Source: Blastocatellia bacterium
GTDB lineage: Bacteria > Acidobacteriota > Blastocatellia > Pyrinomonadales > Pyrinomonadaceae
Length of the DNA stretch: 33,697 bases
Direction: 5' to 3'
Assembly: GCA_013697915.1 (NCBI GenBank)
Contig: JACCVY010000151.1
Span: forward strand, 1 to 33,697
Part shown: piece after piece, positions 1 to 33,104 of the stretch
How the letters are laid out: every line of letters begins with the position of its first letter
Numbering within the stretch: position 1 is the stretch's first letter
The notes under the pieces: generated by a model
Database searches by the model: none
Told to the model about the DNA's origin: nothing
What the model saw: the letters and a program-made list of their open reading frames with translations, nothing else
Translations under genes and position numbers: made by a program

Positions 1-81
1 GTAAACGCGCTCGTCTTCACAACGCTGATTGTTATTGCGACATCTGAACAACCATGGCGAAAAGAAGTTATTACCGAATGA
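1..81 (+). CDS. C-terminal end of an upstream gene (partial)
   Basis: Frame 1 is open from the window edge to a TGA at 79-81 and encodes about 26 residues: a hydrophobic stretch (LVFTTLIVIAT) followed by a charged tail ending EVITE. This would suit the last membrane helix of a polytopic protein. The TGA overlaps the ATG at 78 in the classic ATGA arrangement, which is the main reason to think it is real and co-translated with the TPR gene. Nothing more can be said about its function from 26 residues, and the open frame could be chance. Confidence 0.35.
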   Translation, partial: VNALVFTTLIVIATSEQPWRKEVITE

Positions 82-2000
82 TGATTAGATCCGCCGCATT
101 CAATCGTTTGCTGGCGCTGCTGTTGGCCTTTTCTTTTGGAACGGCCTTCGCCAGCGTTCTGGTTCCGCAATCCGGCGGCGCGAGTGCGTTTCAAGGTCAG
201 GACATTATGGGCGGCGCAGCGATCGTGTTTAAGCGCCCCCAACGCGTGCGTGACCTTGTGGGTGGCGCATCATTGTTAGTGGTGCGGCGCGCACCACGAA
301 CGCCTCGCCCTGAAGTTGCGCGCAATAGCCCTGACCGCCGGCGGCCACGTCCGCAACCCGGCGAGCCTGAGGTTGTGGATGTAAAAATGTCCGACGCCGA
401 TCAAGCTGAGGCGTACAAGGCGCAGGGTAATACTTACTACGATCTCGGGGACTTTGCTCATGCAATCGAAGCGTATCTGAATGCGGCCAAGCACCTACCC
501 AAAGACGCCACGATTTATAACAACCTCGGCGCCGCGTACTTCAGCAGCGGAAAAAATGCCGACTCAGTAGCAGCCTTCAAGAAAGCTCTCGCTGCAAAAC
601 CCGACGATGCGGATGCTTTCTACAATCTGGGCATCGCATACGCAGCCGGCGAAAAGCAAGCCGACGCGTTGGCAGCGTTCAATGAAGCGGTGCGTCTCAA
701 GCCTGATTGGGCAGAGGCTTTTAACGCGCTGGGCGATACTTATCTCGGCCTCAATCGATTCGCCGAGGCGGCCAAAGCCTATGAAGAAGTTGTCCGGCGG
801 CAACCCGACAATGCTGCCGCGTTCAGCAACCTGGGTTTTGCTTACGATCGATTGAACATGGAGGCCCAATCAATCGCAGCCCTGCAGAAAACAGTCAAGC
901 TGAAACCCAACGACGCGGTTGCTTACAACAATCTCGGCGCTAGTCTCTATAAGAGCGGAAACTATAAGGATGCTATTGAGGCTTTCAGCAATTCGCTGCG
1001 AATCAATCCTGCCGACGCTGAAGCGCTCAACAATCTGGGCGCTGCCTATTACATCAGCGAACAATACAGCAATGCTCTGGAAAAGTTTTCTCAAGCAGCA
1101 ACAGCTACTCCGCAATCTGCTGAGTTTCAATACAATCTCGGGAACGCTTATTACATGTTGGGCAAGTTTCCAGAGGCCACCAAGGCTTATCGGGAGGCAA
1201 TACGACTAAAGCCTGACTATGCCGAGGCGCGAACGAATTTGGGAAGTTTGCTAATCGTCATGAACGATCCGCAACAAGCGGCGACCGAGCTGCAAGAGGC
1301 AATTCGTTTACAGTCCGACAATCCAGTGGCTCATAACAATCTTGGTTATGCTTTTTCGCAAATTGGCGAACACAGCGAGAAAGCCGAAGCCCAGCAGTAT
1401 TATCAAAAGGCGTTAGCTGCTTACAAAGAGGCCTTGCGTCTTCGGCCAAACTATCCGAAAGCGCTTAATAATCTCGGCCTGATTCTTAACAAGCTTGGAG
1501 ATTATCCGGGCGCTATCGAAAACACAAAAAAGGCATTGCAGCTGCGACCTGACTTTCCAGAAGCCTATTACAATCTGGGAACGGCTTATTTCAACCTGCG
1601 GCAATTCAAAGAAGCAATCGCCGCCTTCCAAAAAGCGATCGAGCTTAAGCCAGACTTCATCGATGCCTACAATAACCTTGGCGCAGCGTCTTATCAGACT
1701 GGAGACTTTGATCAAGCCATCGCGGCTTATGTAAAGACACTTTCCCTGCGTCCGGACAGTGCCGAAACCCAAAACAACCTGGGAAAGCTTTACGTCAGGA
1801 CGAAACGTTATCAGGAGGCCGTCACGTCCTTTAAGGCTGCGATTGCGCTCAAGCCAAGCTACGCTGAGGCCCATTTCAATTTGGCCGTGGCCTACACGGC
1901 GGCGGGCAACAAGCTGGGGGCTCTGGAGGAATATCGGACTTTAAAAACTCTCAATCCGCGGCTTGCGGACGAGTTTTATCAGCGGTTCGTCAAGAAATAG
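54..2000 (+). CDS. Exported protein with about 15 TPR repeats
   Basis: The N-terminus has basic residues followed by a hydrophobic segment (about residues 18-36, LLALLLAFSFGTAFA), so the protein is likely exported to the periplasm. A short Pro/Arg-rich linker follows (about 78-105). From about residue 115 to the end there are roughly fifteen 34-residue TPR units with the usual signature (NNLG.AY at the start of helix A, A...F..A..L.P at the end of helix B). One unit near residues 430-465 carries an extra ~10 residues. TPR arrays are protein-binding scaffolds, often found beside exopolysaccharide or secretion genes. The start at 54 gives eight extra residues; ATG 78 overlaps the upstream stop and is at least as likely. 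The partner is unknown. The fold is certain and the role is not. Confidence 0.9.
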   Translation: MAKRSYYRMMIRSAAFNRLLALLLAFSFGTAFASVLVPQSGGASAFQGQDIMGGAAIVFKRPQRVRDLVGGASLLVVRRAPRTPRPEVARNSPDRRRPRPQPGEPEVVDVKMSDADQAEAYKAQGNTYYDLGDFAHAIEAYLNAAKHLPKDATIYNNLGAAYFSSGKNADSVAAFKKALAAKPDDADAFYNLGIAYAAGEKQADALAAFNEAVRLKPDWAEAFNALGDTYLGLNRFAEAAKAYEEVVRRQPDNAAAFSNLGFAYDRLNMEAQSIAALQKTVKLKPNDAVAYNNLGASLYKSGNYKDAIEAFSNSLRINPADAEALNNLGAAYYISEQYSNALEKFSQAATATPQSAEFQYNLGNAYYMLGKFPEATKAYREAIRLKPDYAEARTNLGSLLIVMNDPQQAATELQEAIRLQSDNPVAHNNLGYAFSQIGEHSEKAEAQQYYQKALAAYKEALRLRPNYPKALNNLGLILNKLGDYPGAIENTKKALQLRPDFPEAYYNLGTAYFNLRQFKEAIAAFQKAIELKPDFIDAYNNLGAASYQTGDFDQAIAAYVKTLSLRPDSAETQNNLGKLYVRTKRYQEAVTSFKAAIALKPSYAEAHFNLAVAYTAAGNKLGALEEYRTLKTLNPRLADEFYQRFVKK

Positions 2001-2154: not shown

Positions 2155-2823
2155 ATGAATATAAGACAACGGAAAAGTATGAAAGCAATCGCCATATTTG
2201 CGGCATTTGCTGTAGCCCAGATATCCATTCAATTGAGTTTTGCCAGCACCGTCTCGCCCTCCTACGCGATGCTGGTGCAGCAGCAACTCATAGTCAGAGT
2301 AAGCACCAGTGGCAACCGGCCCATCCAGGTCAACGGCAACAGTACAGCCAGTGGCGGCAGCTTGGCGACGGGCGCCATCATTGAAACACCGGACGGCACC
2401 AGCGCGACGATTGATCTAGGCCCACTCGGAACTTTGGACCTTGCGCCGAATAGTAAGGTCGTGCTGGAATTCGATTGCCCGCCGGCCCCGCCGACTCCTC
2501 CTCCAGCGGGAACAGAACCCGAACCCTGCAAGGTAAAGGTGAAAGTGTTGGCAGGCTGTGTAGTTCTCAAGACTAAGAAGGGCACACAAGGTCAAATCGA
2601 CACCGAACAACAAGAGAAAATCCACGAGAGTAATAAGAAGGGCGGAGGCGCACCTCTCAACTTCTGTGCGCTTGGCGCCGCAGCTGCTACGGCAGCGGCC
2701 ACAACCGCAGGCGGAATCGGCGCAGGCACCATTGCTGCCGTCGTCGTCGCCGGTGGTCTGTTGACCGGTGGTCTTATCTTTGGTTTCAGTGGCGGTGGCA
2801 ATACCAGCCCCGGCACACCATAG
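2155..2823 (+). CDS. FecR-domain-like exported protein with hydrophobic Gly/Ala-rich C-terminus
   Basis: A signal-like segment (IAIFAAFAVAQISIQLSFAS) covers about residues 11-31. The middle (about 45-155) reads like a FecR-type beta domain: alternating small and polar residues with phrases such as GAIIETPDGTSATIDLG and LDLAPNSKVVLEF, then a Pro-rich loop and a C-x-V-K-V strand leading to GCVVLKTKKGT. A charged Gln/Lys/Glu linker precedes a C-terminal hydrophobic Gly/Ala run (about 172-215) that could anchor in a membrane. An AAGGGA ribosome-binding site precedes ATG 2155; a second in-frame ATG lies at 2179. In known FecR proteins the domain sits in the periplasm. Here no sigma factor or TonB receptor is adjacent, so a signalling role is not supported. 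It lies between two TPR genes and ends at its own terminator. Confidence 0.75.
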   Translation: MNIRQRKSMKAIAIFAAFAVAQISIQLSFASTVSPSYAMLVQQQLIVRVSTSGNRPIQVNGNSTASGGSLATGAIIETPDGTSATIDLGPLGTLDLAPNSKVVLEFDCPPAPPTPPPAGTEPEPCKVKVKVLAGCVVLKTKKGTQGQIDTEQQEKIHESNKKGGGAPLNFCALGAAAATAAATTAGGIGAGTIAAVVVAGGLLTGGLIFGFSGGGNTSPGTP

Positions 2824-2889: not shown

Positions 2890-2951
2890 TTTAGTCAATC
2901 CATCCTGAGTTGCTCAGCGCCCGGCTCAGCGCCCTAATAATTTCTAACATC

Positions 2952-4226
2952 GTGGACGCGAAAATCTTTAATCGAGCACCGGTTCGTTTGCTGCTGCTAC
3001 TGATCGCGATCGGCTTGTTCGCATGGATCGTTGTCTCGACAGCGCGCTTAGGTCTGTCGCGAATCTTCGTCAAATACTCCCTGGGTACAGGTAACCTGAT
3101 GGTGGCGGATAAGGCGATTGAAATGTCGCCCAAGGACGCGGAGGCGCATCGCGCGCGCGCAGCGGTGCTGACGCTTTCGCAGTCGCTCGGGGACTCTGCC
3201 GGCGAACTTGAGCGGGCTGTTTCTCTTCGCGCAGCAGATTATTCGCTTTGGGTGGACCTGGGCCTGGTTCGCGATCAAGTGGGAGATACTGCCGGCGCCC
3301 TGGCGGCCTTTGATGAAGCCGTGAAGCGCGCGCCCTTCTACGCGTTGCCGCGCTGGCAGCGCGGAAATTTGCTTTTGCGCCTCGGTCAGTACGATTCCGC
3401 ATTGAATGATTTGAATCAGTCGGCCCAGAGTAATCCGGAACTAATCCCAAACTTTATTGATCTTGCATGGAATCTTTCACATGGCGATCCAAAAGTTGTG
3501 CAGCAGATAGTCAGAATCAATAGCAAGACTGCACATACGGCAATGGCGAACTTCTTTGCGAGCCATGGGAAACCACAAGAAGCTATGTCTGAGTTTCAAG
3601 CTGCCGGCACAACTAATGATGACACCCGGCGCGACCTGATTAACAGACTCTTTGACAAGGGAAGTTTTGCAGAAGCTTATCAGGTCTGGAGCGCTGCTAA
3701 CGGAGTGACAGCAGCAGGCGAGCGACCACCCCATCAGATTTTTGATGGCGGCTTTGAGGCACCCTTGAGTTTTGACGAAGGCGGTTTTAGCTGGCGCATC
3801 CCGCGACGCTTGCAAGCAACCACCGTTTCCCTCGATTCCAGCCAACCGCATACCGGCTCGAAGAGCTTGAGAATTGAATTCGCGGGTGATTCCAATCCCG
3901 CAATCGATCTTGTTTCGCAACTGCTCTTAGTTGAACCGGCCCAACGCTACAAGATAAATTTCGCGGCGCGTTCGCAGGAGATTGTCAGTGGCGGATTGCC
4001 AATCATTACCGTGACCGACGCAGGTGCCGGCCATAAACGACTGGGCCAGTCGCTGCCATTGTTGAAAGGTTCGAGCAATTGGAACGTGAATAGTTTTGAG
4101 TTTGCTACGCAGCCCACTAGCAAGGCTGTTGTGCTTAGCGTTCAGCGGGAAGGATGTACGGCTGCACCGTGTCCGATCTTCGGCGCAATCTCGCTCGACA
4201 GCTTTTCTATCGAGCAGTTGAAATGA
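2952..4226 (+). CDS. Membrane-anchored TPR protein with C-terminal jelly-roll/CBM-like domain
   Basis: I prefer the GTG at 2952 (MDAKIFNRAP...), which places a single membrane helix (LLLLLIAIGLFAWIVVSTA) at about residues 11-29. The frame is also open from a TTG at 2910. The helix is followed by TPR-like helical pairs (SPKDAEAHRARAAVLTLS, SLWVDLGLVRDQVGDTAGALAAFDEAVKRAP, then LRLGQYDSALNDLNQS). The last ~165 residues form a separate module beginning IFDGGFEAPLSFDEGGFSWRI and containing HTGSKSLRIEF and YKINFAARSQEI. This pattern is typical of carbohydrate-binding beta-sandwich (CBM-like) domains. The layout suggests a protein at the outer face of the inner membrane in a polysaccharide-handling cluster. 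No catalytic motif is seen. Confidence 0.8.
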   Translation: MDAKIFNRAPVRLLLLLIAIGLFAWIVVSTARLGLSRIFVKYSLGTGNLMVADKAIEMSPKDAEAHRARAAVLTLSQSLGDSAGELERAVSLRAADYSLWVDLGLVRDQVGDTAGALAAFDEAVKRAPFYALPRWQRGNLLLRLGQYDSALNDLNQSAQSNPELIPNFIDLAWNLSHGDPKVVQQIVRINSKTAHTAMANFFASHGKPQEAMSEFQAAGTTNDDTRRDLINRLFDKGSFAEAYQVWSAANGVTAAGERPPHQIFDGGFEAPLSFDEGGFSWRIPRRLQATTVSLDSSQPHTGSKSLRIEFAGDSNPAIDLVSQLLLVEPAQRYKINFAARSQEIVSGGLPIITVTDAGAGHKRLGQSLPLLKGSSNWNVNSFEFATQPTSKAVVLSVQREGCTAAPCPIFGAISLDSFSIEQLK

Positions 4227-4328: not shown

Positions 4329-5168
4329 ATGAAAAAGGTCGACCGCCTGGGATGGGCGGAAGGCTTTGCGCTGAAATCCTACGGCGTGCGGATCGGCGTT
4401 CGGTCAAACGATGCCTCCGCCCTGGATCGTGTCTGCAAATATTTGCCCGCTGGTTGGCAAATTGGTACGACGCCGGTCGTGGACCGCGTCTATTCGATTT
4501 TGGTGGGAGGCGTGGGGCCGCGGGCTAACGTGCGGCGGTTTAGCTTGCTTTACGGAGATCACCTGCGCATTGCGCGGTCGACGAATCTCGAAGACGTTTT
4601 CGAGCGGTTCGAATCTGATTTGCGTTTGTTCGTGGGTGAATTTGCCCCTCATCGTGTCTTCGTTCATGCGGGCGTGGTTGCTTGGAGGGGAAACGCGATT
4701 GTAATCCCAGGCCGTAGTTATTCGGGAAAATCCACCCTGGTGGCCGCGCTGGTTCGGGCCGGAGCAACGTATTATTCCGATGAGTACGCTGTATTTGACT
4801 CGAAGGGCCTGGTGCACCCTTTTGCAAAACCTCTGGAAATTCGAGCTGAGGGTGAATTCAAACAAGCGCGAATCACAGTTGACGAGCTGGGTGGAAAGTC
4901 AGGAACGAAACCGCTGCCGGTCGGCTTGGTTCTAATGACAGGTTACAAGCGCGGTGCGAAATGGCGGCCGCGTAAGGTGTCACCTGGCAAAGGCGTTCTG
5001 GAAATGCTCTTTAACACTGTGTCGGCGCGGCGAAGTCCGGAAAAAGCCTTGTCCACTTTGAGACACGTAACGAAGAAGGCGGAAGTTCTTAAGGGCACGA
5101 GAGGTGATACAAGCGCCATTGTCGATGCGATTCTGAGAAGAATGGATCGAATTGCGGAACGTGGTTAA
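4329..5168 (+). CDS. HPr-kinase-like P-loop kinase (HprK-related)
   Basis: This 279-residue protein has a clear Walker A motif at residues 128-136 (GRSYSGKST) followed by ALVRAGATYYSDEYAVFD, where D151-E152 occupy the Walker-B-like position of the HprK/PckA kinase fold. The N-terminal ~125 residues are a family-specific region with no recognised domain. It lacks the N-terminal HPr-kinase regulatory domain and the signature C-terminal segment of true HprK/P, so it belongs to the stand-alone HprK-related group. Relatives occur in exosortase/exopolysaccharide clusters and in lasso-peptide clusters, where some phosphorylate the peptide. The stop codon at 4326-4328 fixes 4329 as the earliest start. 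The nucleotidyltransferase begins 21 bases downstream, so the two are probably co-transcribed. The substrate is unknown. Confidence 0.85.
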   Translation: MKKVDRLGWAEGFALKSYGVRIGVRSNDASALDRVCKYLPAGWQIGTTPVVDRVYSILVGGVGPRANVRRFSLLYGDHLRIARSTNLEDVFERFESDLRLFVGEFAPHRVFVHAGVVAWRGNAIVIPGRSYSGKSTLVAALVRAGATYYSDEYAVFDSKGLVHPFAKPLEIRAEGEFKQARITVDELGGKSGTKPLPVGLVLMTGYKRGAKWRPRKVSPGKGVLEMLFNTVSARRSPEKALSTLRHVTKKAEVLKGTRGDTSAIVDAILRRMDRIAERG

Positions 5169-5189
5169 CGTTCACGGAGTTGCTCGCGT

Positions 5190-6263
5190 ATGAGTGGAAC
5201 CTTGAATGAGCAGGGCGAGCTGCTTGCGCGCGCATTGCGAGGCGCCTGGCGTGCCAATGATTTACCGCCATTCGATCTTTCGGAGAAGGAGTTAGACCAG
5301 GTCGCACCATTGCTGATGGGGTCGGGTGCAGCGGCGCTCGGCTGGCGCGTCGTGGATCACAGCCCGCTGCGCGAGTCTTCGTCGGGAGAACTGCTTCATC
5401 AGGCTTATCGCCTCCAGTCGTTACAAGCAGAGATACAGGAAGAAAAAATCGAAAAGGTGTTCCGGCTCCTGCGAGAGGCGGCGCTGGATGCGATTCTCGC
5501 CAAGGGTTGGGCGGCGGCGGAACTTTATCCGAATCGGACGCTCCGTCCCTATGGCGACATCGACATTTGTGTCCGCTCGCGTGATTACCGGTCCGTATCA
5601 GAGTTGTTCAGCAGTCCGGCGGGCAGTGACTGTTGGATCGACCTCCATCGACAGTTCTCCGAGATTGGCAATAGAAGTGTTGAGGAACTGTTCAGCAGAT
5701 CAAAGGTGCAGAGAGTTCGACAGGAAGAAGTGCGCGTTCTGGGTGACGAAGACCATTTCGCACTTTTATGCATTCATCTCTTGAAACACGGCGCCTGGCG
5801 ACCCTTATGGCTCTGCGATGTTGCGGCGGCAATGGAGTCTCGGCCGCCAACATTTGATTGGGAGTTATGTCTTGGCAAGGATCCCATCAGGGCAAGCTGG
5901 ATTCAGAGCGCGTGTGGCTTGGCGCAACGGCTACTTGGAGCCAGGACTGAAAAGTTACCGCAAAATATGCGAACGCTGGCGGTGCCGGAATGGCTGGTGG
6001 ACACAGTTTTACAGCAATGGTGCAACCCATTTGCTATGTTTCAAGCACCGATGAATCATCCGGTTGCTATGTCAGATGTCTGGCGGCGACCCTCAGGGCT
6101 AATCGACGGTTTGCGACAGCGTTGGCCGAATCCGATCATCGCGACCATCAGCGTCCACGGGCGCCTAAACGACTTGCCGCGCCTGCCTTATCAACTTGCA
6201 AACTGCATTGCGCGCGCAGTGCGCTTCCTGATTCCTGGCAGCGATGAATTGCGGGAACATTGA
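5190..6263 (+). CDS. Nucleotidyltransferase family protein (NTP_transf_5 type)
   Basis: This 357-residue protein carries the hallmark of the PF14907-type nucleotidyltransferases: ILAKGWAAAELYP with K105, then RPYGDIDICV with metal-binding D123 and D125. A conserved WIDLHRQF strand (about residue 150) and LLCIHLLKHGAW (about 190) follow, which also match the family. The C-terminal third is helical and less conserved. Such proteins are predicted to transfer a nucleotide or act as minimal nucleotidyltransferases; substrates are mostly unknown. A GGAG lies 12 bases before ATG 5190. The gene directly follows the HPr-kinase-like gene, and this kinase-nucleotidyltransferase pairing recurs in lasso-peptide and exopolysaccharide loci. 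Here neither the peptide cyclase/protease genes nor exosortase are visible. Confidence 0.85.
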   Translation: MSGTLNEQGELLARALRGAWRANDLPPFDLSEKELDQVAPLLMGSGAAALGWRVVDHSPLRESSSGELLHQAYRLQSLQAEIQEEKIEKVFRLLREAALDAILAKGWAAAELYPNRTLRPYGDIDICVRSRDYRSVSELFSSPAGSDCWIDLHRQFSEIGNRSVEELFSRSKVQRVRQEEVRVLGDEDHFALLCIHLLKHGAWRPLWLCDVAAAMESRPPTFDWELCLGKDPIRASWIQSACGLAQRLLGARTEKLPQNMRTLAVPEWLVDTVLQQWCNPFAMFQAPMNHPVAMSDVWRRPSGLIDGLRQRWPNPIIATISVHGRLNDLPRLPYQLANCIARAVRFLIPGSDELREH

Positions 6264-6271
6264 ATCTTGTT

Positions 6272-7018
6272 ATGAATAGTGCTCCGGTAATTTTAAGTTT
6301 GGAAACGGCAACGCTTGGCGGGAGCATTTTCCTGGCGCGCGGGACTGACGCCCTGGCCACCAGAGAAGGTGATTCTAAAGTCTCGCACTCGAACAGCATT
6401 CTGTCCGACATTAACGAATGTTTGAATGAGGCTGGTTTGAGGCCCGCGGACATTCAACTGTTTGCCTGCGCTTCCGGGCCAGGCAGCTTTACGGGTTTAA
6501 GAATTGGCATCGCGACGCTGAAAGCGTTAGCGGCCACGTTAGACCGGCCATGCGTCGGCGTGCCTACGCTTAATGCGATAGCGCAAAGTGCAGGTAGATC
6601 GAACGCAACCGTTGCGCTCTTGCCGGCCGGCCGCGGCGAAGTTTTCGCGCAAATGTTTTCTGTTTCTGCGGACGAACTGGTTGAACTTGATACCGCCGCT
6701 CATTTGTCGCCGCAAAAATTGATCGAACGTTACCAGAAATTTCCAAGTCTCGTTTGGACAGGACCGGGCGCAGTCTCTCATCGCGCGCTGCTGCGAGACT
6801 ACGCCGAGCAGCAGGCTATTACTTTTGTCGAGCGCATGGCGCAAACAGCTAACGACCTAAGCGGCTGGCAGCTGGCGCCGCATGTCGGCAATCTGGCCCA
6901 GAACGTTTCCGCACTGGCGCTGCGACTGTCTGCGGCGGGCCAAACTCAAACCGCTGAATCCCTTCGCGCCAACTACGTGCGGCCTTCCGACGCTGAGATT
7001 AACCGGTCATGGCAATAA
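6272..7018 (+). CDS. tsaB: tRNA threonylcarbamoyladenosine biosynthesis protein TsaB
   Basis: TsaB is the non-catalytic ASKHA-fold partner of TsaD in the complex that makes the t6A modification at tRNA position 37. The N-terminus has VILSLETAT, followed by HSNSILSDINECL and the diagnostic FACASGPGSFTGLRIGIATLKALA with VGVPTLNAIA. About 248 residues is slightly longer than the E. coli protein (231). I chose ATG 6272; a TTG at 6260 would overlap the preceding stop and add four residues. The last 10 bases overlap rimI, the usual tsaB-rimI coupling. tsaD and tsaE are not in the window. Confidence 0.95.
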   Translation: MNSAPVILSLETATLGGSIFLARGTDALATREGDSKVSHSNSILSDINECLNEAGLRPADIQLFACASGPGSFTGLRIGIATLKALAATLDRPCVGVPTLNAIAQSAGRSNATVALLPAGRGEVFAQMFSVSADELVELDTAAHLSPQKLIERYQKFPSLVWTGPGAVSHRALLRDYAEQQAITFVERMAQTANDLSGWQLAPHVGNLAQNVSALALRLSAAGQTQTAESLRANYVRPSDAEINRSWQ

Positions 7019-7524
7019 CCGAGCAAGTTTTTGAGAGACTCGCGAACGGCTTCTCCATAAGTCGAATGACCGAGCACGATTTGCTTGAAGTCGTGGAGAT
7101 CGAGGAGGAGTCCGGACTGAGCCGCTGGGGCTGGGCCGCCTACTATGCGGAATTACAGGGCAATAATCGTGACCTGATGCTGGTAGCGCGCGCGCCGGAA
7201 TCCAAAGCGCCGCGCGTTTCACACAAGCTTGCCTCCTACATTGTCGCGCGCGTCGGCGCAAACGAATTGCACATCAACAATGTCGCTGTTCGCGAGAGAT
7301 ATCGCCGGCAGGGCATAGGGCTTACGTTGCTGGGTCGCATTTTGGAAGTAGGCAGGCGCCGGGGTGTCAACGCCGCTTTTCTCGAGTTGCGTGCTGGAAA
7401 CGCGGCGGCGCTCTCACTTTATGAAAAGTGTGGCTTTCGCGTGACTGCGCGCCGGCAGAACTATTACTCAGAGCCAACTGAAGATGCGCTGGTGATGACA
7501 ATCCAACTGGGTCGAAACGCTTGA
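7009..7524 (+). CDS. rimI: Ribosomal-protein-alanine N-acetyltransferase RimI
   Basis: This GNAT-family acetyltransferase of 171 residues has the acetyl-CoA-binding motif A as RRQGIGLTLL (Q101-G104), preceded by the beta strand ELHINNVAVRERY and followed by FLELRAGNAAALSLYEKCGF. This is the RimI-type ending with the conserved N..A..LYEK.GF. RimI acetylates the N-terminal alanine of ribosomal protein S18 in E. coli; homologues can have wider targets. The ATG lies inside tsaB, so translation is probably coupled. The N-terminal IEEESGLSRWG is a variant of the usual family region; the rest is ordinary. Confidence 0.93.
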   Translation: MAITEQVFERLANGFSISRMTEHDLLEVVEIEEESGLSRWGWAAYYAELQGNNRDLMLVARAPESKAPRVSHKLASYIVARVGANELHINNVAVRERYRRQGIGLTLLGRILEVGRRRGVNAAFLELRAGNAAALSLYEKCGFRVTARRQNYYSEPTEDALVMTIQLGRNA

Positions 7525-23932: not shown

Positions 23933-26900
23933 ATGAGGGTCTTCTTTGCCGTCGCTCTGCTTTGCTTGATTGCACCGCAAGCGGCCCATGGTCAGGCCCC
24001 TCCCTGCCCTGATCCCCCCGCTCCTATCTCAAACTCGTATACCTTTCAAGGGCTGGGCGAGAGCATCACTATTCCCTTCAGCACGTCTCCTTGCCATACC
24101 GTGGCCGTCAATGTTTCCTGGTCAAACGGTCTGAACTATGGAAGTAATCTTAAGGTTTCGTTTCTTGACGCCTCAGGCCAGCCAATTTACTACGAAGATA
24201 CCATTTCAGCGTATCTACCAGGGTCGAGGATCTTTCCATTTTCGTCGCCATATCCTTACCCGTGGCGCGGATCGCGTTCGTCACTCCTTAACCCGGCGGC
24301 CCTGAAAATCGAAACAATATATCCCTTCGCGGTTTCCTGTTTCATCACTTACGACATCACGTTTACTGCGCGGCCAGGCTACAACGTTGGTGGCGATAGT
24401 TTCACTAATGCCCCATTAGTTCCAGCATTACCCACGACATATTTAGGCAGTATGTATGACGGGAGAACGCCGCCATTCGGAGGTGTCTCGATAGACCCAG
24501 GCCAGTTCTTCAAGGTGCACCTAAAGTGCAATCAAGCTATATATGCTTATGGTTCGGTTACGGTAAGCAGCGGCGTCAGCTCCAACTTTCGCGTGGACAT
24601 CTATGATGCCAATCAACAGCTAATAACGCCAAACTGGATCTTTACTGGCAGCATGGGCACGACGAGTTTCGCTTCGAATCCTTTTGTCAATCCCAACTCC
24701 ACCGAGAGCGATTTTTACATCAAGGCGTGGAGTTACAACTGGCCCATCTACGATTTCACCCTGAACATAGATGAGTATGTCGCGTCAAACAATGTGAACA
24801 ATCCCCGACCCGTTGCTCCCGACGCAACCGGAGGAACGACTCCGAACAGTGAGGAGTTCCATCTGCCCGCGAGCATCGACACCGACGTTTTAACCGTTAG
24901 TGCTACGGAACTGTGGGCGAAGGTCTATTGGCCGGCGGATTTTTCGGGCGGCCCCTATCCGCTAGCGGTTTTTCTTCATGGGAACCATTCAACCTGCGGA
25001 AAGATCGGAACCAGCCCGCGCCTTGACGATAACAGTGATTACACTTTGACCGGCACATGTCCAGCTGGTTATAGCGTAATCAATAACCATCTAGGATTCG
25101 AATATCTCGCTACCCAGCTTGCTTCTCGTGGCTATATAGTTAGTTCCATCAATGCCAATCGCGGTATCACTGGTGGCGATCAAAGCCATCCCGATGATCC
25201 TGCTCACATCTTCTCTCGCGGACGCCTGGTGCTTAAGCATCTGGAAACTCTGCAAAAATGGAATGCTGGTCCGTCAGCTTTGATCACCCCTACCACCTTA
25301 GGCACATTGCGAAAGAATTCGAATAACTGGTTTGGGATGAAGATTACGGTCGGATCTCAAGCAATCACTGTTTATTCGCTCGGAAGAATATTCGTGAGCG
25401 GCAACACGGGCACACATACCGTCAAGCTTGTGAGAGCCAGCGACAGCGTTGACCTGGCCAGTGTCTCTATACCCATGACTGGCGGCACCGCGGGTCAGTT
25501 TAAGTATGTGAACCTGACGACGCCGATTAGGTTAGCTGCGAATACCAGTTACTACGTCGCCAGCAAGGAAGTGAACAATGGTGACTTCTGGTATGACTCG
25601 AACACAATTGTTGGCTCGACGACGATTGCTACGGTAAATGGGAGAGTTACCAGCACTAATGGCACGACTTGGAGTACATCAGGAGCCGTAGCAGGAAACG
25701 TCTACGTGCCAGTAGATCTTAAGTATCAGGTTCTCAGCGTAAATTTTACAGGCAAGGTAGATTTTACCAACGTGGGTCTGATGGGGCATTCTCGGGGAGG
25801 TCAAGGTGTCCTTGCTGCCTACAACCTATACAGGAATGCCGGCATCGATCCTAGAGCAACCCCTCCCGACATTGCTTGGTCAACTAGGATTCCGGGAATG
25901 AATATCAAAGGCATCTTCGAGATTGCACCGACCGATTATTTCCTTCCAACCGCGAGCGATGGTAGCGGCGTCCAGTATCCGAATGCTGACGGAACTGCAT
26001 TCAATGCCCTGCTTCCGATGTGCGACGGGGATGTTAGGAGTCTCCAGGGAGTTCGAGTATTCGATAGGGCAATGTCGTTTACTGGCGGAAACACTGGCGT
26101 TCCGGCAGAGAGCCCGGCGACGCAAAAGTCTACCTACGGCGTTTGGGGTGCGAACCATAACTTCTTCAATACTGAATGGCAACAGACTGAATCCCTGGGT
26201 TGTAAGGGTCCTGGCAATACGCGTCTGTTTCCTTTTCCGGTCACGGACGGAAGCGGATCGCCTAATCAAAGAACAACCGGCTCGGCCAGTGTTCTCGCCT
26301 TTTTCCGGGCCAACGTTGGCTCGTCTCCTTCGACAGCCTTTAACCAGAATTTCAAGCCGAATTATCAACTGCCCGCGGTCATTACTTCCATACCCGAACG
26401 CATCGATCAGGGATTCACCTCTTCGCCCAGTTTGACAATCACGAAGGTTCTGTTTGATTTCACTGCCACACTACCCCCAAATTCAGATTATCTGTTCACC
26501 GCGCCGGCTGTAGCGTTCAACAATGCAGCGACGATTCCTGAGCACGACTATGTGACGAATCCCACTCCATGCTTTGGAGGTTCGAATCCGCCACCTTGTC
26601 CAGCACCAAGCCCTATTGCAGTAGCTCTAACGGTCGGGCGGATCTCCTGGGAAAGCGCGGACTGCGCGAATTATTTCCAGGCAAACTGGAAAGCGCCGGG
26701 CACCGGAGAGAGCGTTACCGGTTATCAAACGCTCGATTTCCGCGTTTCTCGTCAAATCGACGACATACGAAATTCCTCTGCCTCCACTAACTTTCAAATC
26801 CAGTTTATTGCGGCCGACGGTAGCCCCACCGGCGCTGCTGTTTCTCTCAACAAGTATATGAACCTCGCGGGGCCAGTCGGCTTAGACGACGGGAGTCCTA

Positions 26901-27058
26901 ATGGTTTCTTACACCCCATATTGCAGACGGTTAGGATTCCGCTAAGCGATTTTAGTGGAGCGAATCTTTTCAATGTGCGCGGCGTAAGGTTTGTGTTTTC
27001 AGATACACCGAAGGGGGCGATCTACCTTGCTAATATCCGTCTTTCGAATCAACAGTGA
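23933..27058 (+). CDS. Secreted alpha/beta hydrolase with nested beta domain
   Basis: The 1041-residue protein begins with a signal peptide (MRVFFAVALLCLIAPQAAHG). Residues ~25-290 look like beta-rich, PPC/CBM-like modules. The hydrolase core starts near 320 with the oxyanion-side strand PLAVFLHGNHS (H349). The nucleophile elbow is GHSRGG with S620. Candidate Asp and His partners are in LLPMCDGDV and GANHNFFNTEW. Between these halves, about residues 450-597 form an inserted domain (NWFGMKITVGSQAITVYSLGRIFVSG, YYVASKEVN) resembling DUF4082-like beta domains. A further beta-sandwich (about 860-1041) ends the protein. The family resembles chlorophyllase/PAF-acetylhydrolase-like esterases; the substrate is unknown. 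No ribosome-binding site precedes ATG 23933, whereas an out-of-frame ATG at 23872 has GGAGAAG. Confidence 0.85.
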   Translation: MRVFFAVALLCLIAPQAAHGQAPPCPDPPAPISNSYTFQGLGESITIPFSTSPCHTVAVNVSWSNGLNYGSNLKVSFLDASGQPIYYEDTISAYLPGSRIFPFSSPYPYPWRGSRSSLLNPAALKIETIYPFAVSCFITYDITFTARPGYNVGGDSFTNAPLVPALPTTYLGSMYDGRTPPFGGVSIDPGQFFKVHLKCNQAIYAYGSVTVSSGVSSNFRVDIYDANQQLITPNWIFTGSMGTTSFASNPFVNPNSTESDFYIKAWSYNWPIYDFTLNIDEYVASNNVNNPRPVAPDATGGTTPNSEEFHLPASIDTDVLTVSATELWAKVYWPADFSGGPYPLAVFLHGNHSTCGKIGTSPRLDDNSDYTLTGTCPAGYSVINNHLGFEYLATQLASRGYIVSSINANRGITGGDQSHPDDPAHIFSRGRLVLKHLETLQKWNAGPSALITPTTLGTLRKNSNNWFGMKITVGSQAITVYSLGRIFVSGNTGTHTVKLVRASDSVDLASVSIPMTGGTAGQFKYVNLTTPIRLAANTSYYVASKEVNNGDFWYDSNTIVGSTTIATVNGRVTSTNGTTWSTSGAVAGNVYVPVDLKYQVLSVNFTGKVDFTNVGLMGHSRGGQGVLAAYNLYRNAGIDPRATPPDIAWSTRIPGMNIKGIFEIAPTDYFLPTASDGSGVQYPNADGTAFNALLPMCDGDVRSLQGVRVFDRAMSFTGGNTGVPAESPATQKSTYGVWGANHNFFNTEWQQTESLGCKGPGNTRLFPFPVTDGSGSPNQRTTGSASVLAFFRANVGSSPSTAFNQNFKPNYQLPAVITSIPERIDQGFTSSPSLTITKVLFDFTATLPPNSDYLFTAPAVAFNNAATIPEHDYVTNPTPCFGGSNPPPCPAPSPIAVALTVGRISWESADCANYFQANWKAPGTGESVTGYQTLDFRVSRQIDDIRNSSASTNFQIQFIAADGSPTGAAVSLNKYMNLAGPVGLDDGSPNGFLHPILQTVRIPLSDFSGANLFNVRGVRFVFSDTPKGAIYLANIRLSNQQ

Positions 27059-29555: not shown

Positions 29556-30449
29556 TTAGTCATCTTCACTTAGCCTGCCTATGATAACCACATAGGTCGG
29601 AGCTCCCGCACTCGCGAATAATTGGATTTCTGCAACCAGCATCTTTGGCGCAGCCGTTTCACGCAAAAAGATTCTGTGTTGAACGCCTGGATACTTCTTG
29701 AAAGGAGACGGTAGGGTGCCAACGAATCCACCGATGCTATTCGGCTCCAACATGATCGCTCGCACCAAAGCTGACTTGTTTTTCACTTGCGGCAATTGAC
29801 CATTTGCATGAGCAAATCCATAAGCGATCTTTGCCACCATCCTGGCGAATGCAATCGCATCACTATTTACTATTTTTAACTCAATTTCCTTTGCGCCGTG
29901 CTGTTTTGCGAATGCCTCTGGATCCGCGCCGAAGCTGCCGGTCGCAATGCCAACCAATTTCAGTTCCGGAGTCTTTGCTGTCGAATAGTCCAATGGAGCG
30001 AATATTGGAAACGGCAACAATATTGGTGCCTCATCCCGAGTTGCCTGAATAAGGACCTCACGCCGGTCAAGAGTGATTGTAACCGGAATCGTTTTAGGCA
30101 CATCTTCATGTTTTGAGCGAGACGGTGCATTTTGGATGTAGCGAACCATACGCATCGGTCCTCGCAGTACCGCAGTTTCAAATGCGGATGTTATCCCTCG
30201 ACACCTCTCACAGGAACCTCTCGGTATCGTTACAGTTCCACCGAGTGCAAATGCCAGAATGTGCCCACGACTAAGCTTCACATTAGAATCGCAGTAGATG
30301 CGCGCGTCTGATGACTCCGGTGTCAACTTAGAACAGTCCGAAATGTCACTGGTATCTGCTATTACAACGCTCGGTTGCCCCGACGCAGTTACAGTCTGCC
30401 AGCGAACTTCTCCATCACGGATGATTTCGACTTTTGTAGTTCCTTCCAT
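29556..30449 (-). CDS. HNH-nuclease-like protein, active site partly altered
   Basis: The region at residues 50-91 matches the zinc-dependent HNH endonuclease group: IYC (C53), then LSRGHILAFALGG with H63, and SCERC (C80, C83) followed by ITSAFE and VLRGPM. The usual form is C-x-Y-C ... L-S/T-x-E-H-I-I-P-x-x-L-G-G ... S-C-x-x-C. Here the first Cys is an Arg and the Glu before the His is Gly, so activity is doubtful. The following ~170 residues (DRREVLIQATRDEAPILLPF, GFAHANGQLPQVKNKSALVRAIML) are typical of proteins with this head but of unknown role. An AGGAAA precedes ATG 30449. Confidence 0.65.
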   Translation of the reverse strand: MEGTTKVEIIRDGEVRWQTVTASGQPSVVIADTSDISDCSKLTPESSDARIYCDSNVKLSRGHILAFALGGTVTIPRGSCERCRGITSAFETAVLRGPMRMVRYIQNAPSRSKHEDVPKTIPVTITLDRREVLIQATRDEAPILLPFPIFAPLDYSTAKTPELKLVGIATGSFGADPEAFAKQHGAKEIELKIVNSDAIAFARMVAKIAYGFAHANGQLPQVKNKSALVRAIMLEPNSIGGFVGTLPSPFKKYPGVQHRIFLRETAAPKMLVAEIQLFASAGAPTYVVIIGRLSEDD

Positions 30450-30647
30450 CGTCAGGTTTCCTCAGAACTTCCAGCGACCCACACTACTCAGAAAATAAGC
30501 GGCGAAGAATTCTCCAAGCGCATCAGTATAACTAAGGCCCTAACGGCGCGAACCGCTAGAGCCCCTATTGAAAACCTAACGCGATTGCTCGCACTTGGCC
30601 TTCAGCAAATCCATTGTGAGCCAATCGCCAAACGAAAGGCAAGCACA

Positions 30648-31889
30648 ATGGAAGAACGGGAAGTGAAGGCCCTTGAGATTGCGGCCAAGTCCAAACTCAC
30701 CCGCAGAGGTAAGACTTGGTTAGTTCCATCACAGTCAGTACGCGGCGCACAATACACGGTCGATGCGGATCCGGTGGATCCCCAATGCACCTGTCCTGAC
30801 TTTGAATGCCGGAAGCAGCGTTGCAAACACATCTTCGCTGTCGAATACACGATCGAGCGCGAACAAACGCCTGATGGCGAGACAGTTCTCACCGAGTCGT
30901 TCAAAGTAACCCGCAGAACCTATCCACAAGAGTGGAAAGCTTACAATCTCGCGCAGACTCACGAAAAAGCAGAACTCCAATCTCTTCTGTACGAACTGTG
31001 CCGCACAATTCCAGAGCCGGAGCAGTATCGTGGAAGACCACGGCTGTCGCTTGCGGACATAATCTTTTCGTCTGCATTCAAGATTTACTCGACCCTCTCA
31101 GCCAGACGTTTCATGACGGATTTGCGTGAAGCGAAAGAGAGAGGTTATATATCGAAGCTACCTGCTTACAACTCACTATTTCGCTACCTTGAAGCCGAGT
31201 CTCTCACAGCGCATCTGTATCAACTCGTAACCATCAGCAGTCTTCCGTTGAAGGCCATCGAAACAGACTTTGCCGTCGATTCGTCCGGCTTCGGCACCGG
31301 CCAATTCATGCGCTGGCTGGATGTGAAGTATGGCAAAGAAGAAGATCGACGAATGTGGCTAAAAGTCCATCTCATGTGTGGAGTTAAAACGAACATCATC
31401 ACGTCCGTCGAGATTAGTGACGGATATGCCAACGACTATCATTATTTTAAGGGCTTAGTCGCCCGAACTGGAGAGAACGGGTTCAACATGAAAGAGGTCT
31501 CTGCCGACAAAGCTTACCTCGGCGGCGAGAATCTGCTGGTCACGTTGCGGCAAGGTGCTATCCCTTACATTCCTTTTAAGTCGAACTCCCAAATTCAAAC
31601 CAACTATGGTCCTAAATCAGAACTTTGGACACGAATGTTCCACTTTTATAACTTCCACCGCGAGGAGTTTCTTCAGCACTATCACAAGCGTTCGAATGTG
31701 GAGACTACATTCCACATGATCAAAGCAAAGTTTGGACAACGGTTGCGGAGCAAAACCTTAACGGCACAAATCAACGAAGCATTGTGCAAGGTACTTTGTC
31801 ACAATCTTTGTGTCTTGATTCAGTCGGCGCATGAATTGGGAGTTGAAGCAGTCTTTACTGATGAGTTGTGGCAATACAACGAACGTTAG
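30648..31889 (+). CDS. DDE transposase fused to an N-terminal SWIM zinc finger
   Basis: The start I use is ATG 30648; the frame is open further upstream but the region before is probably not coding. Residues 47-61 form a SWIM zinc finger, C-x-C-x9-C-x-H (C47, C49, C59, H61), expected to bind DNA or protein. The rest is an IS4-like (DDE_Tnp_1) transposase: RGRPRLSLADIIFSS, then catalytic D211 (AVDSSGFG), D287 (SADKAYLG) and E352 (KRSNVETTFHM). YREK-like spacing around the Glu is kept, and all three acids are present, so it may be active. No terminal inverted repeats could be identified on either side. The neighbouring minus-strand transposase is a homologue. Confidence 0.85.
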   Translation: MEEREVKALEIAAKSKLTRRGKTWLVPSQSVRGAQYTVDADPVDPQCTCPDFECRKQRCKHIFAVEYTIEREQTPDGETVLTESFKVTRRTYPQEWKAYNLAQTHEKAELQSLLYELCRTIPEPEQYRGRPRLSLADIIFSSAFKIYSTLSARRFMTDLREAKERGYISKLPAYNSLFRYLEAESLTAHLYQLVTISSLPLKAIETDFAVDSSGFGTGQFMRWLDVKYGKEEDRRMWLKVHLMCGVKTNIITSVEISDGYANDYHYFKGLVARTGENGFNMKEVSADKAYLGGENLLVTLRQGAIPYIPFKSNSQIQTNYGPKSELWTRMFHFYNFHREEFLQHYHKRSNVETTFHMIKAKFGQRLRSKTLTAQINEALCKVLCHNLCVLIQSAHELGVEAVFTDELWQYNER

Positions 31890-32005: not shown

Positions 32006-32983
32006 CTACGCTGTTTTCTTGTCTTCACCCTGCTCCCAGAATGTAGGTTCAATACCAAGTTCGTAGTAGGCTTGGATGGTGACGCAGATGTTGTGACACA
32101 GCACTTTGCAAAGCAGTTCGTTAAACTGCGCCACTTGTGTGCGACTACGAATCCGCTCCCCGAACTTCATCTTGATCATCGCATTCGTGCTCTCGACGTT
32201 ACTGCGCTGATGGTAGCGGCGATCGAACCACTCGTTGTTTAAAGAGTAGAAGTGGTACAACCGTGTCCACAATGGATCACCACTGCCGTGTACGGCATTA
32301 GCGTTTGCTTTGAACGGGACGACAGCCAGTACACCTTTGCTGTCTGCGTGCTTAAAGTTAGCAAGACTCGAATAGGCCTTGTCACCGATCACTTCTCGTG
32401 GACGAAAATTCTGCGTTGTCGTATCCAGCAATGGTACAAAATAAGGAGCATCGCCGGCGTTCCCATCAGTGACTTCCACCGCCGTGACAATGTTGGTCAA
32501 CACCCCGCACATCAAATGCGCTTTGATCCATTGTCGTTTATCGCCGGAATGTAGCTTTCCATAACGAAAATCGAACCAGCGGCCAAAAAGCGACGTTGAA
32601 AATCCAGTTGAATCGATCGCGAAGCTCTTTTCAACATTTCGCAACGGCAGACTGCTTTGAATAATGAGTTGCACCAGGTACTGCCGCAACTTACTCTTTT
32701 TGAAATACCTCAAGATCGTGCTAAAGGACGGAAGCCGTGAGATGAATCCGTGCTCGTACGCAACCTTCAAATCGAACATTACGCGCCGGCACGACACTCC
32801 GCAATAGACCTTGAAAATCATGCAGAACAACATATCCGCGAGCGCTACACGAGGCCGCCCTCGCCCTTGCTCCAAATCAACGACTCCCGCACACAGATCG
32901 TGCGCCAATGTCTGAAGATCGCCTTTCTCCTTCTGTTGAGCACGATTATACGGACCCCAGATTTGAGGGTAAGTCTTTTTCAT
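32006..32983 (-). CDS. DDE transposase, IS4-like, without the SWIM module
   Basis: The start is ATG 32983, supported by AGGAGAAGG just upstream; the frame extends to 33022 without family support. Residues 1-130 match the other transposase (TYPQIWGPYNRAQ against TYPQEWKAYNLAQ). The catalytic acids are D124 (AIDSTGF), D201 (IGDKAYSS) and E264 (RSNVEST). KAHLMCGVLTNIVTAVEV and LLCKVLCHNICVTIQAYYELG align with the same blocks of the first transposase, so they are related but not recent copies. It is 325 residues and begins immediately at the region corresponding to the end of the zinc-finger module of the other. It is orientated tail to tail with that gene. Confidence 0.88.
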   Translation of the reverse strand: MKKTYPQIWGPYNRAQQKEKGDLQTLAHDLCAGVVDLEQGRGRPRVALADMLFCMIFKVYCGVSCRRVMFDLKVAYEHGFISRLPSFSTILRYFKKSKLRQYLVQLIIQSSLPLRNVEKSFAIDSTGFSTSLFGRWFDFRYGKLHSGDKRQWIKAHLMCGVLTNIVTAVEVTDGNAGDAPYFVPLLDTTTQNFRPREVIGDKAYSSLANFKHADSKGVLAVVPFKANANAVHGSGDPLWTRLYHFYSLNNEWFDRRYHQRSNVESTNAMIKMKFGERIRSRTQVAQFNELLCKVLCHNICVTIQAYYELGIEPTFWEQGEDKKTA

Positions 32984-32993
32984 GCCTTCTCCT

Positions 32994-33104
32994 TTACATT
33001 TGAGGGCATGACTGAGTAACATGCGGCTTGTTACAGACTGCGCACGTGACTCCGGTCACGCCGTGGTTGAAAACAGGGGGCCTCCGAGTCGTGAACGCGA
33101 CCAA
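32994..33104 (-). CDS. Possible 36-residue zinc-knuckle-like protein upstream of the transposase
   Basis: On the minus strand a TTG at 33104, with AAGGAG four bases before it, opens 36 codons ending in TAA ten bases before the transposase ATG. The translation contains TCAVCNKPHVTQSCP, a C-x2-C-x3-H-x4-C arrangement (C21, C24, H28, C33), one residue short of a classic zinc knuckle. The spacing to the transposase gene suggests translational coupling, with the ribosome-binding site of the latter overlapping the stop region. It is too short to be sure of. Confidence 0.35.
   Translation of the reverse strand: MVAFTTRRPPVFNHGVTGVTCAVCNKPHVTQSCPQM

Follow-up and report, generated by a model that had tools for sequence, protein, structure and literature searches.

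Besides lasso-peptide loci, exosortase loci also contain the kinase and nucleotidyltransferase families considered here. Two reviews (PMC8498205, PMC9266682) describe HPr-kinase homologues that phosphorylate the C-terminal serine of lasso precursors; for pseudomycoidin, they name PsmK as the phosphorylating enzyme and PsmN, homologous to nucleotidyltransferases, as the one that attaches one or two hexoses to this phosphate, although host glycosylation after nucleotidylation may account for the hexoses. In Sphingomonas, annotation shows the HPr-rel-A cassette, which combines a TIGR04352 kinase with a TIGR04353 PqqD protein and an NTP_transf_5 gene; in Vibrio it shows the kinase and the nucleotidyltransferase only. 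Our searches of the open-access literature returned nothing relevant on HprK-related kinase A or HPr-rel-A systems, and we did not find a description of the substrate of this kinase-PqqD-nucleotidyltransferase cassette, for which the F2 proteins discussed below offer a concrete candidate.

The window, that is, the whole stretch of 33,697 nucleotides analysed here, is the entire contig C100. The draft genome to which it belongs measures 4.5 Mb, is 97% complete and has a Pyrinomonadaceae MAG (JAVEDP010000004.1) as its closest named relative. The window carries, side by side and both intact, an HprK-fold kinase (KIN) and an NTP_transf_5 enzyme (NTP), with their motifs at the positions given by a previous inspection of this DNA (the sequence-only reading). 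That inspection had seen neither a precursor nor a PqqD-like gene in the window, as we can confirm; likewise, our scan of its positions 1-12 kb for twin-arginine ORFs gave a single chance overlap only.

Table 1. Features of the window around the kinase-nucleotidyltransferase pair
Feature	Position	Strand	Basis or remark
Assembly overlap	1..127	.	identical to reverse-complemented start of own contig C187
TPR-repeat protein (F14)	54..2000	+	upstream neighbour kept in nearest relatives
Secreted/membrane protein F15, no family match	2155..2823	+	neighbour kept in nearest relatives
TPR protein F7, possible C-terminal carbohydrate-binding-like domain	2910..4226	+	Pfam
HprK-fold P-loop kinase (KIN), 279 aa	4329..5168	+	motifs, conservation, structure model
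NTP_transf_5 nucleotidyltransferase-fold enzyme (NTP), 357 aa	5190..6263	+	Pfam, catalytic Asp intact
TsaB-like gene	6260..7018	+	housekeeping, downstream of NTP
GNAT/RimI-like gene	7009..7524	+	housekeeping, downstream of NTP

Judged by residue conservation, the active sites of both enzymes are preserved. In KIN, the motif GRSYSGKST spans residues 128-136 and the DE pair residues 151-152; G133, K134, D151 and R258 show no variation across 37 homologues, position 113 is H in 36 of them, and an acidic residue always fills position 152 (E 32 times, D five times). The predicted model of KIN (pLDDT 93) aligns to HprK/P (1kkl, Z 14.1) and PEPCK, and this modelled fold, with the Walker A lysine K134 and the catalytic aspartate D151, assigns it to the HprK/PEPCK superfamily. 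With HprK/P it has the fold and the P-loop in common, but identity is about 18% over the catalytic domain, the N-terminal half differs and the match to the HprK model is weak or absent. TIGR04352 is matched weakly by all 37 homologues, and KIN itself matches it in part (59.6 bits, cut-off 200); by these profile scores, KIN is a distant relative of HprK-related kinase A. NTP, which follows KIN at 22 bp, matches PF14907 with an E value of 1.8e-24 (87.1 bits, gathering score 31.2). Its DID motif occupies residues 123-125, and K105, R119, D123, D125 and D151 are unchanged in 25 homologues, so that the profile score, the DxD and the third aspartate identify it as an NTP_transf_5 enzyme. Searched by sequence against the PDB, KIN found no match and NTP one chance match, and a scan of genome contigs with NTP as the query returned one relative only.

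The sequence-only reading held that the pair looks peptide-modifying, which agrees with our analysis, and that its substrate may be encoded left of the window, which is very probably not the case. Contig C187 joins the window through an exact 127-bp overlap, both sides are collinear with the relative G004, and the own orthologue of the G004 WecA-like gene sits on C187 (91% identity). This left flank holds an O-antigen ligase (Wzy_C), a WecA-like GT4, a GT, a short four-helix-type ORF and an epimerase; therefore, a polysaccharide locus extends leftwards from the pair, which sits at its right end, and the housekeeping genes downstream of NTP mark the border on that side. Exosortase (EpsH-type), PqqD, protease, cyclase and asparagine-synthetase-like genes, several of which the sequence-only reading had proposed to look for on the left, are absent from C187. 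Farther left, one relative, G004, has a carbamoyltransferase and an Asn synthase; a close orthologue of the latter was not found among the own contigs examined, and none of the four full-length Asn-synthase genes of the own genome lies on the window contig or C187.

The upstream neighbours received mixed support. The TPR calls for F14 and F7 were borne out, the jelly-roll part of F7 reduces to a CBM_4_9 match below cut-off, and the FecR-like label given to F15 has no counterpart among Pfam or NCBIfam families (0 matches in each). The case that the sequence-only reading named as refuting, a pair not kept with these neighbours in relatives, had a mixed outcome. The block of TPR, F15-type, TPR, kinase and nucleotidyltransferase genes is conserved in the nearest relatives; elsewhere, the kinase keeps the nucleotidyltransferase and another gene, F2, but not the TPR genes.

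In relatives, F2 lies between the kinase and the nucleotidyltransferase and encodes proteins of 150-270 aa with an N-terminal PqqD/RRE domain, an internal twin-arginine signal and a hypervariable tail. PqqD models were matched by 22 of 22 members, PF05402 scored above cut-off in two of three sampled F2s and slightly under in the third, and TIGR04353 (PqqD_rel_X) gave E<=0.1 in 11 of the 22, the first member reaching 17.6 bits against a cut-off of 35. The N-domain is predicted to have a PqqD-like winged-helix fold, which resembles PqqD and, with a TM of 0.75 on target, the lasso RRE TbiB1 in its structure with leader peptide (5v1v). The signal consists of S-R-R, a hydrophobic stretch and an AxA-like site at its end. 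The twin-arginine sequence motif is present in 72 of 74 F2s, at an internal position (about residue 105) that is unusual for Tat, and NCBIfam TAT-signal models are matched weakly by some members. As far as the searched libraries show, the family is undescribed: Pfam and NCBIfam matches reach the PqqD part and, weakly, the twin-arginine part, and the open-access literature yielded nothing relevant on PqqD with twin-arginine or cysteine-rich precursors or on PqqD-fused exported precursors.

The tails of the 72 full F2s, whose cut sites were placed by a simple rule (a few visibly wrong, with a slight effect on lengths), measure 21-143 residues and contain 15.6% Cys and 19% Ser+Thr. The number of cysteines is even in 66 of the 72 (binomial p 7e-14, though paralogues are not independent), and pairwise identity, with Cys left out, falls from 38% (PqqD part) and 45% (signal) to 16% in the tail. 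Knottin-like spacing occurs in some tails, one case being C-x6-C-x6-CC-x3-C-x4-C of L037; knottin models were matched below their cut-off. We found no invariant phospho-acceptor in F2, and the C-terminal Ser needed by lasso kinases is present in 3 of 72 tails.

As with PsmK/PsmN and the paeninodin kinase PadeK, an HPr-kinase homologue is combined with a nucleotidyltransferase and a PqqD-type (B1) partner, and KIN has the His-Lys-Asp-(Asp/Glu) residues of the PsmK/PadeK kinases. Unlike in the lasso systems, a cyclase is not linked, the B2 protease is absent, and the Cys-rich tail and putative export signal of F2 replace the lasso core and, mostly, its C-terminal Ser. The HPr-rel-A cassette likewise unites an HprK-like kinase, a PqqD-type domain and an NTP_transf_5 enzyme, and a small twin-arginine protein is encoded immediately upstream in both cassettes examined. 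However, the scores of KIN and F2 against its models lie under both cut-offs, and the PqqD domain of F2, instead of standing alone, is fused to a putatively exported peptide, multiplied and often unlinked. At the level of sequence, the pair represents a variant of the kinase-PqqD-nucleotidyltransferase cassette that has diverged, undergone fusion and become dispersed. RiPP families with many precursors also have a conserved leader part, a hypervariable Cys-rich core and many precursors per enzyme set; unlike theirs, the F2 leader itself holds the recognition domain and the twin-arginine signal, and known RiPP cyclases were not found in F2 loci.

Among the 41 kinase loci of the relatives, 27 have F2 within 3 kb of KIN, mostly at <200 bp and on the same strand, the commonest linked order being KIN-F2-NTP. 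Counting strong matches only, KIN and F2 were both present in 41 of 97 relatives and both missing in 51, with KIN alone in two and F2 alone in three (Fisher p 2.7e-21; since the set includes related species, p-values are upper-end descriptions). In the same order (both, first only, second only, neither), the counts were 39, 4, 5 and 49 for KIN and NTP and 41, 3, 3 and 50 for F2 and NTP. The five KIN/F2 mismatches are KIN at a contig end (G096), KIN fragments at contig ends (G009, G023), a weaker F2 match (G026) and a genome that is 71% complete (G045). Within the 16 genomes of the window's genus, the genes are jointly present in five (six with a kinase cut by a contig end) and jointly absent in ten. 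A sample of 396 genomes of the phylum gave 40 with both KIN and F2, five with KIN only, one with F2 only and 350 with neither, and in G438 and G109, which count among the five with KIN only, a weaker F2-like gene lies near the kinase. We also observed that these F2-like proteins (L174 in G438, L175/L176 in G109) carry Pro/Lys-rich or Thr/Gly/Asp-repeat tails that are not Cys-rich; the Thr-rich repeats would suit a hydroxyl-linked modification.

Two other families recur in these loci. F33, of about 430 aa, shows a His pattern like that of cupins, matches no Pfam family and adjoins F2 or the kinase in five loci (L046:4800-6113, L053, L061, L131, L137). Giant secreted C25 (gingipain-family) peptidases are recurrent F2 neighbours (C241/C4, L037, L041, L043, L050, L055, L134, L137, L170), but we can rule them out as obligatory partners, as they occur without F2 and are missing where F2s are many.

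Outside Acidobacteriota, the megaplasmid (NZ_CP007129.1) of the cultured Gemmatirosa kalamazoonensis KBS708 (Gemmatimonadota) carries KIN, F2, MauE and NTP in a row, with six Cys in the F2 tail, and this compact version makes the system directly testable. Periplasmic disulfide chemistry is the home of MauE-type proteins; as a general partner MauE is ruled out, being matched in Gemmatirosa and not in other loci. On plasmids of Vibrio alfacsensis and Sphingomonas parapaucimobilis, a separate twin-arginine protein is followed by the HprK_rel_A kinase and the nucleotidyltransferase. The Sphingomonas cassette (NZ_CP155749.1) has an annotated PqqD protein, and in its place the Vibrio cassette (NZ_CP140104.1) has an 84-aa ORF with no model match. 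The comparison of the fused form with these two split cassettes points to the twin-arginine protein as the putative target.

Gene order in the relatives suggests why the window has no F2. In G043 the order is TPR-F15-F7-KIN-F2-NTP; in G044 the corresponding place reads TPR-F15-F7-F2-F2-NTP, followed by a phosphofructokinase-like gene and TsaB, with the kinase elsewhere; and in the window, G004, G006 and G014 it is F7-KIN-NTP-TsaB, with F2 genes scattered. The own genome has one F2 (C241:376-1020, 214 aa, C-terminal sequence ...AVSCGATCHPCNSPVDCCGVCSSSVPGCPGLGNKCT). The gene after it begins a giant C25-peptidase protein, and contig C4 carries the end and the C25 domain of that protein; in G004 the orthologous F2 precedes a 2656-aa C25 protein. 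The substrate of the window's pair is very probably encoded elsewhere in the genome and not left of the window, the likely candidate being the unlinked F2 on C241. As F2 would have moved out of the kinase-nucleotidyltransferase locus in this clade, the pair merely looks substrate-less, and a maturation pair can appear orphaned when its precursors are dispersed across the genome. In the otherwise conserved coding sequences of the own F2 (L082, residues about 70-115) and of the L034 Asn synthase and carbamoyltransferase, we also noticed in-frame short repeat inserts of the types GSRQQAESRRQKAVGSRQ and HSALSTQHSALSTQ.

Dispersal reaches further in G041, where at least 38 F2 genes accompany a single KIN and a single NTP, adjoining and with no F2 between them, as in the window. 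The F2 count is likewise at least 38 in G052, which has one kinase and no strong nucleotidyltransferase. In these two genomes (loci L120-L130), F2 genes are often tandem, with hypervariable and Cys-rich tails, and look like an arsenal of secreted peptides, or a repertoire for the cell surface, that is being diversified.

Considering linkage, co-occurrence, domain architecture, catalytic residues and the variable, even-Cys tails, KIN and NTP probably form a two-enzyme peptide-modification module that acts in trans on F2 proteins. We infer a sequence of steps in which the RRE domain of F2 would recruit KIN (and NTP), and KIN would phosphorylate F2 at a hydroxyl, for which the Ser/Thr-rich tail is the likeliest place. 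NTP would then extend the phosphate with a sugar or nucleotidyl group, both reactions being modelled by analogy on pseudomycoidin. The modified F2 would be exported through its twin-arginine signal and cleaved after the AxA-like site, and its tail disulfides would form outside. In G052, G072 and G083, KIN and F2 occur without a strong NTP match; therefore, the second step would not be obligatory, and phosphorylation alone may suffice in these three genomes. Possibly, and we hold this less firmly, the F2 proteins represent a new RiPP class, in which one kinase-nucleotidyltransferase pair, acting in trans, would phosphorylate exported, disulfide-rich peptides with an RRE domain of their own and afterwards glycosylate or nucleotidylate them. 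The class would have diversified into dozens of products per genome in Acidobacteriota, with Gemmatimonadota holding relatives of it and Proteobacteria a split form of ancestral type. Such peptides would bring together three themes seldom combined, namely peptide modification guided by an RRE, export by the twin-arginine route, and cystine-rich peptides that are hypervariable.

The nearby glycan genes fit, and do not prove, a sugar donor for the NTP step. They could also be taken to mean that the pair modifies a polysaccharide or lipid carrier of the Wzy/WecA locus, the link to F2 being secondary or regulatory. A glycan substrate would explain the repeated proximity to polysaccharide genes equally well, given the ligase, WecA-like GT, GT and epimerase of the left flank and the presence, in several further genera, of comparable genes close to the kinase. 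We nevertheless consider it unlikely, as F2 is kept in many kinase loci without glycan genes, KIN presence tracks F2 almost genome by genome, and the N-domain of F2 has a peptide-recognition fold.

That fold raises the question of whether F2 is instead an adaptor or regulator that brings KIN and NTP to another secreted target, its Cys-rich tail having a separate job. RRE domains such as TbiB1 and PqqD are classically adaptors, and the giant C25 peptidase often found after F2 could be the target. Yet dozens of paralogues with hypervariable tails resemble a product set rather than an adaptor, a strong C25 peptidase match is missing from G041 and from G052, and the split proteobacterial cassettes keep the twin-arginine protein apart from the PqqD-like one, all of which makes this role improbable. 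Very doubtful is the idea that the pair of the window's clade is a decaying remnant left after loss of the linked F2: F2 is indeed absent between KIN and NTP in G000, G004, G006 and G014, and G043, where the genes are ordered alike, does have it there, but the catalytic residues are intact, KIN is 89% identical to the G004 kinase, and all four such genomes have F2 genes elsewhere. Finally, an ordinary lasso-peptide or exosortase/PEP-CTERM locus cut at the contig end is hardly credible and, as far as a 97%-complete draft permits, ruled out: both enzyme families are known from lasso loci (PMC8498205), but the EpsH-family exosortase (PF09721) and the lasso B2 protease (Transglut_core3) were unmatched in the own genome, the recovered left flank lacks both, and no full standard locus of either type accounts for the pair, as the sequence-only reading had supposed.

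The modification of F2 by KIN and NTP thus remains our preferred reading of the locus. Two observations concern the rest of the window. At 23933-27058 it encodes a secreted protein of 1041 aa with an esterase/PET-hydrolase-like stretch (GHSRGGQG) inside and long regions on either side. Near the right end of the contig lies a pair of transposase-like ORFs, at 30375-31889 (+) and 32006-33022 (-), with related sequences on opposed strands.
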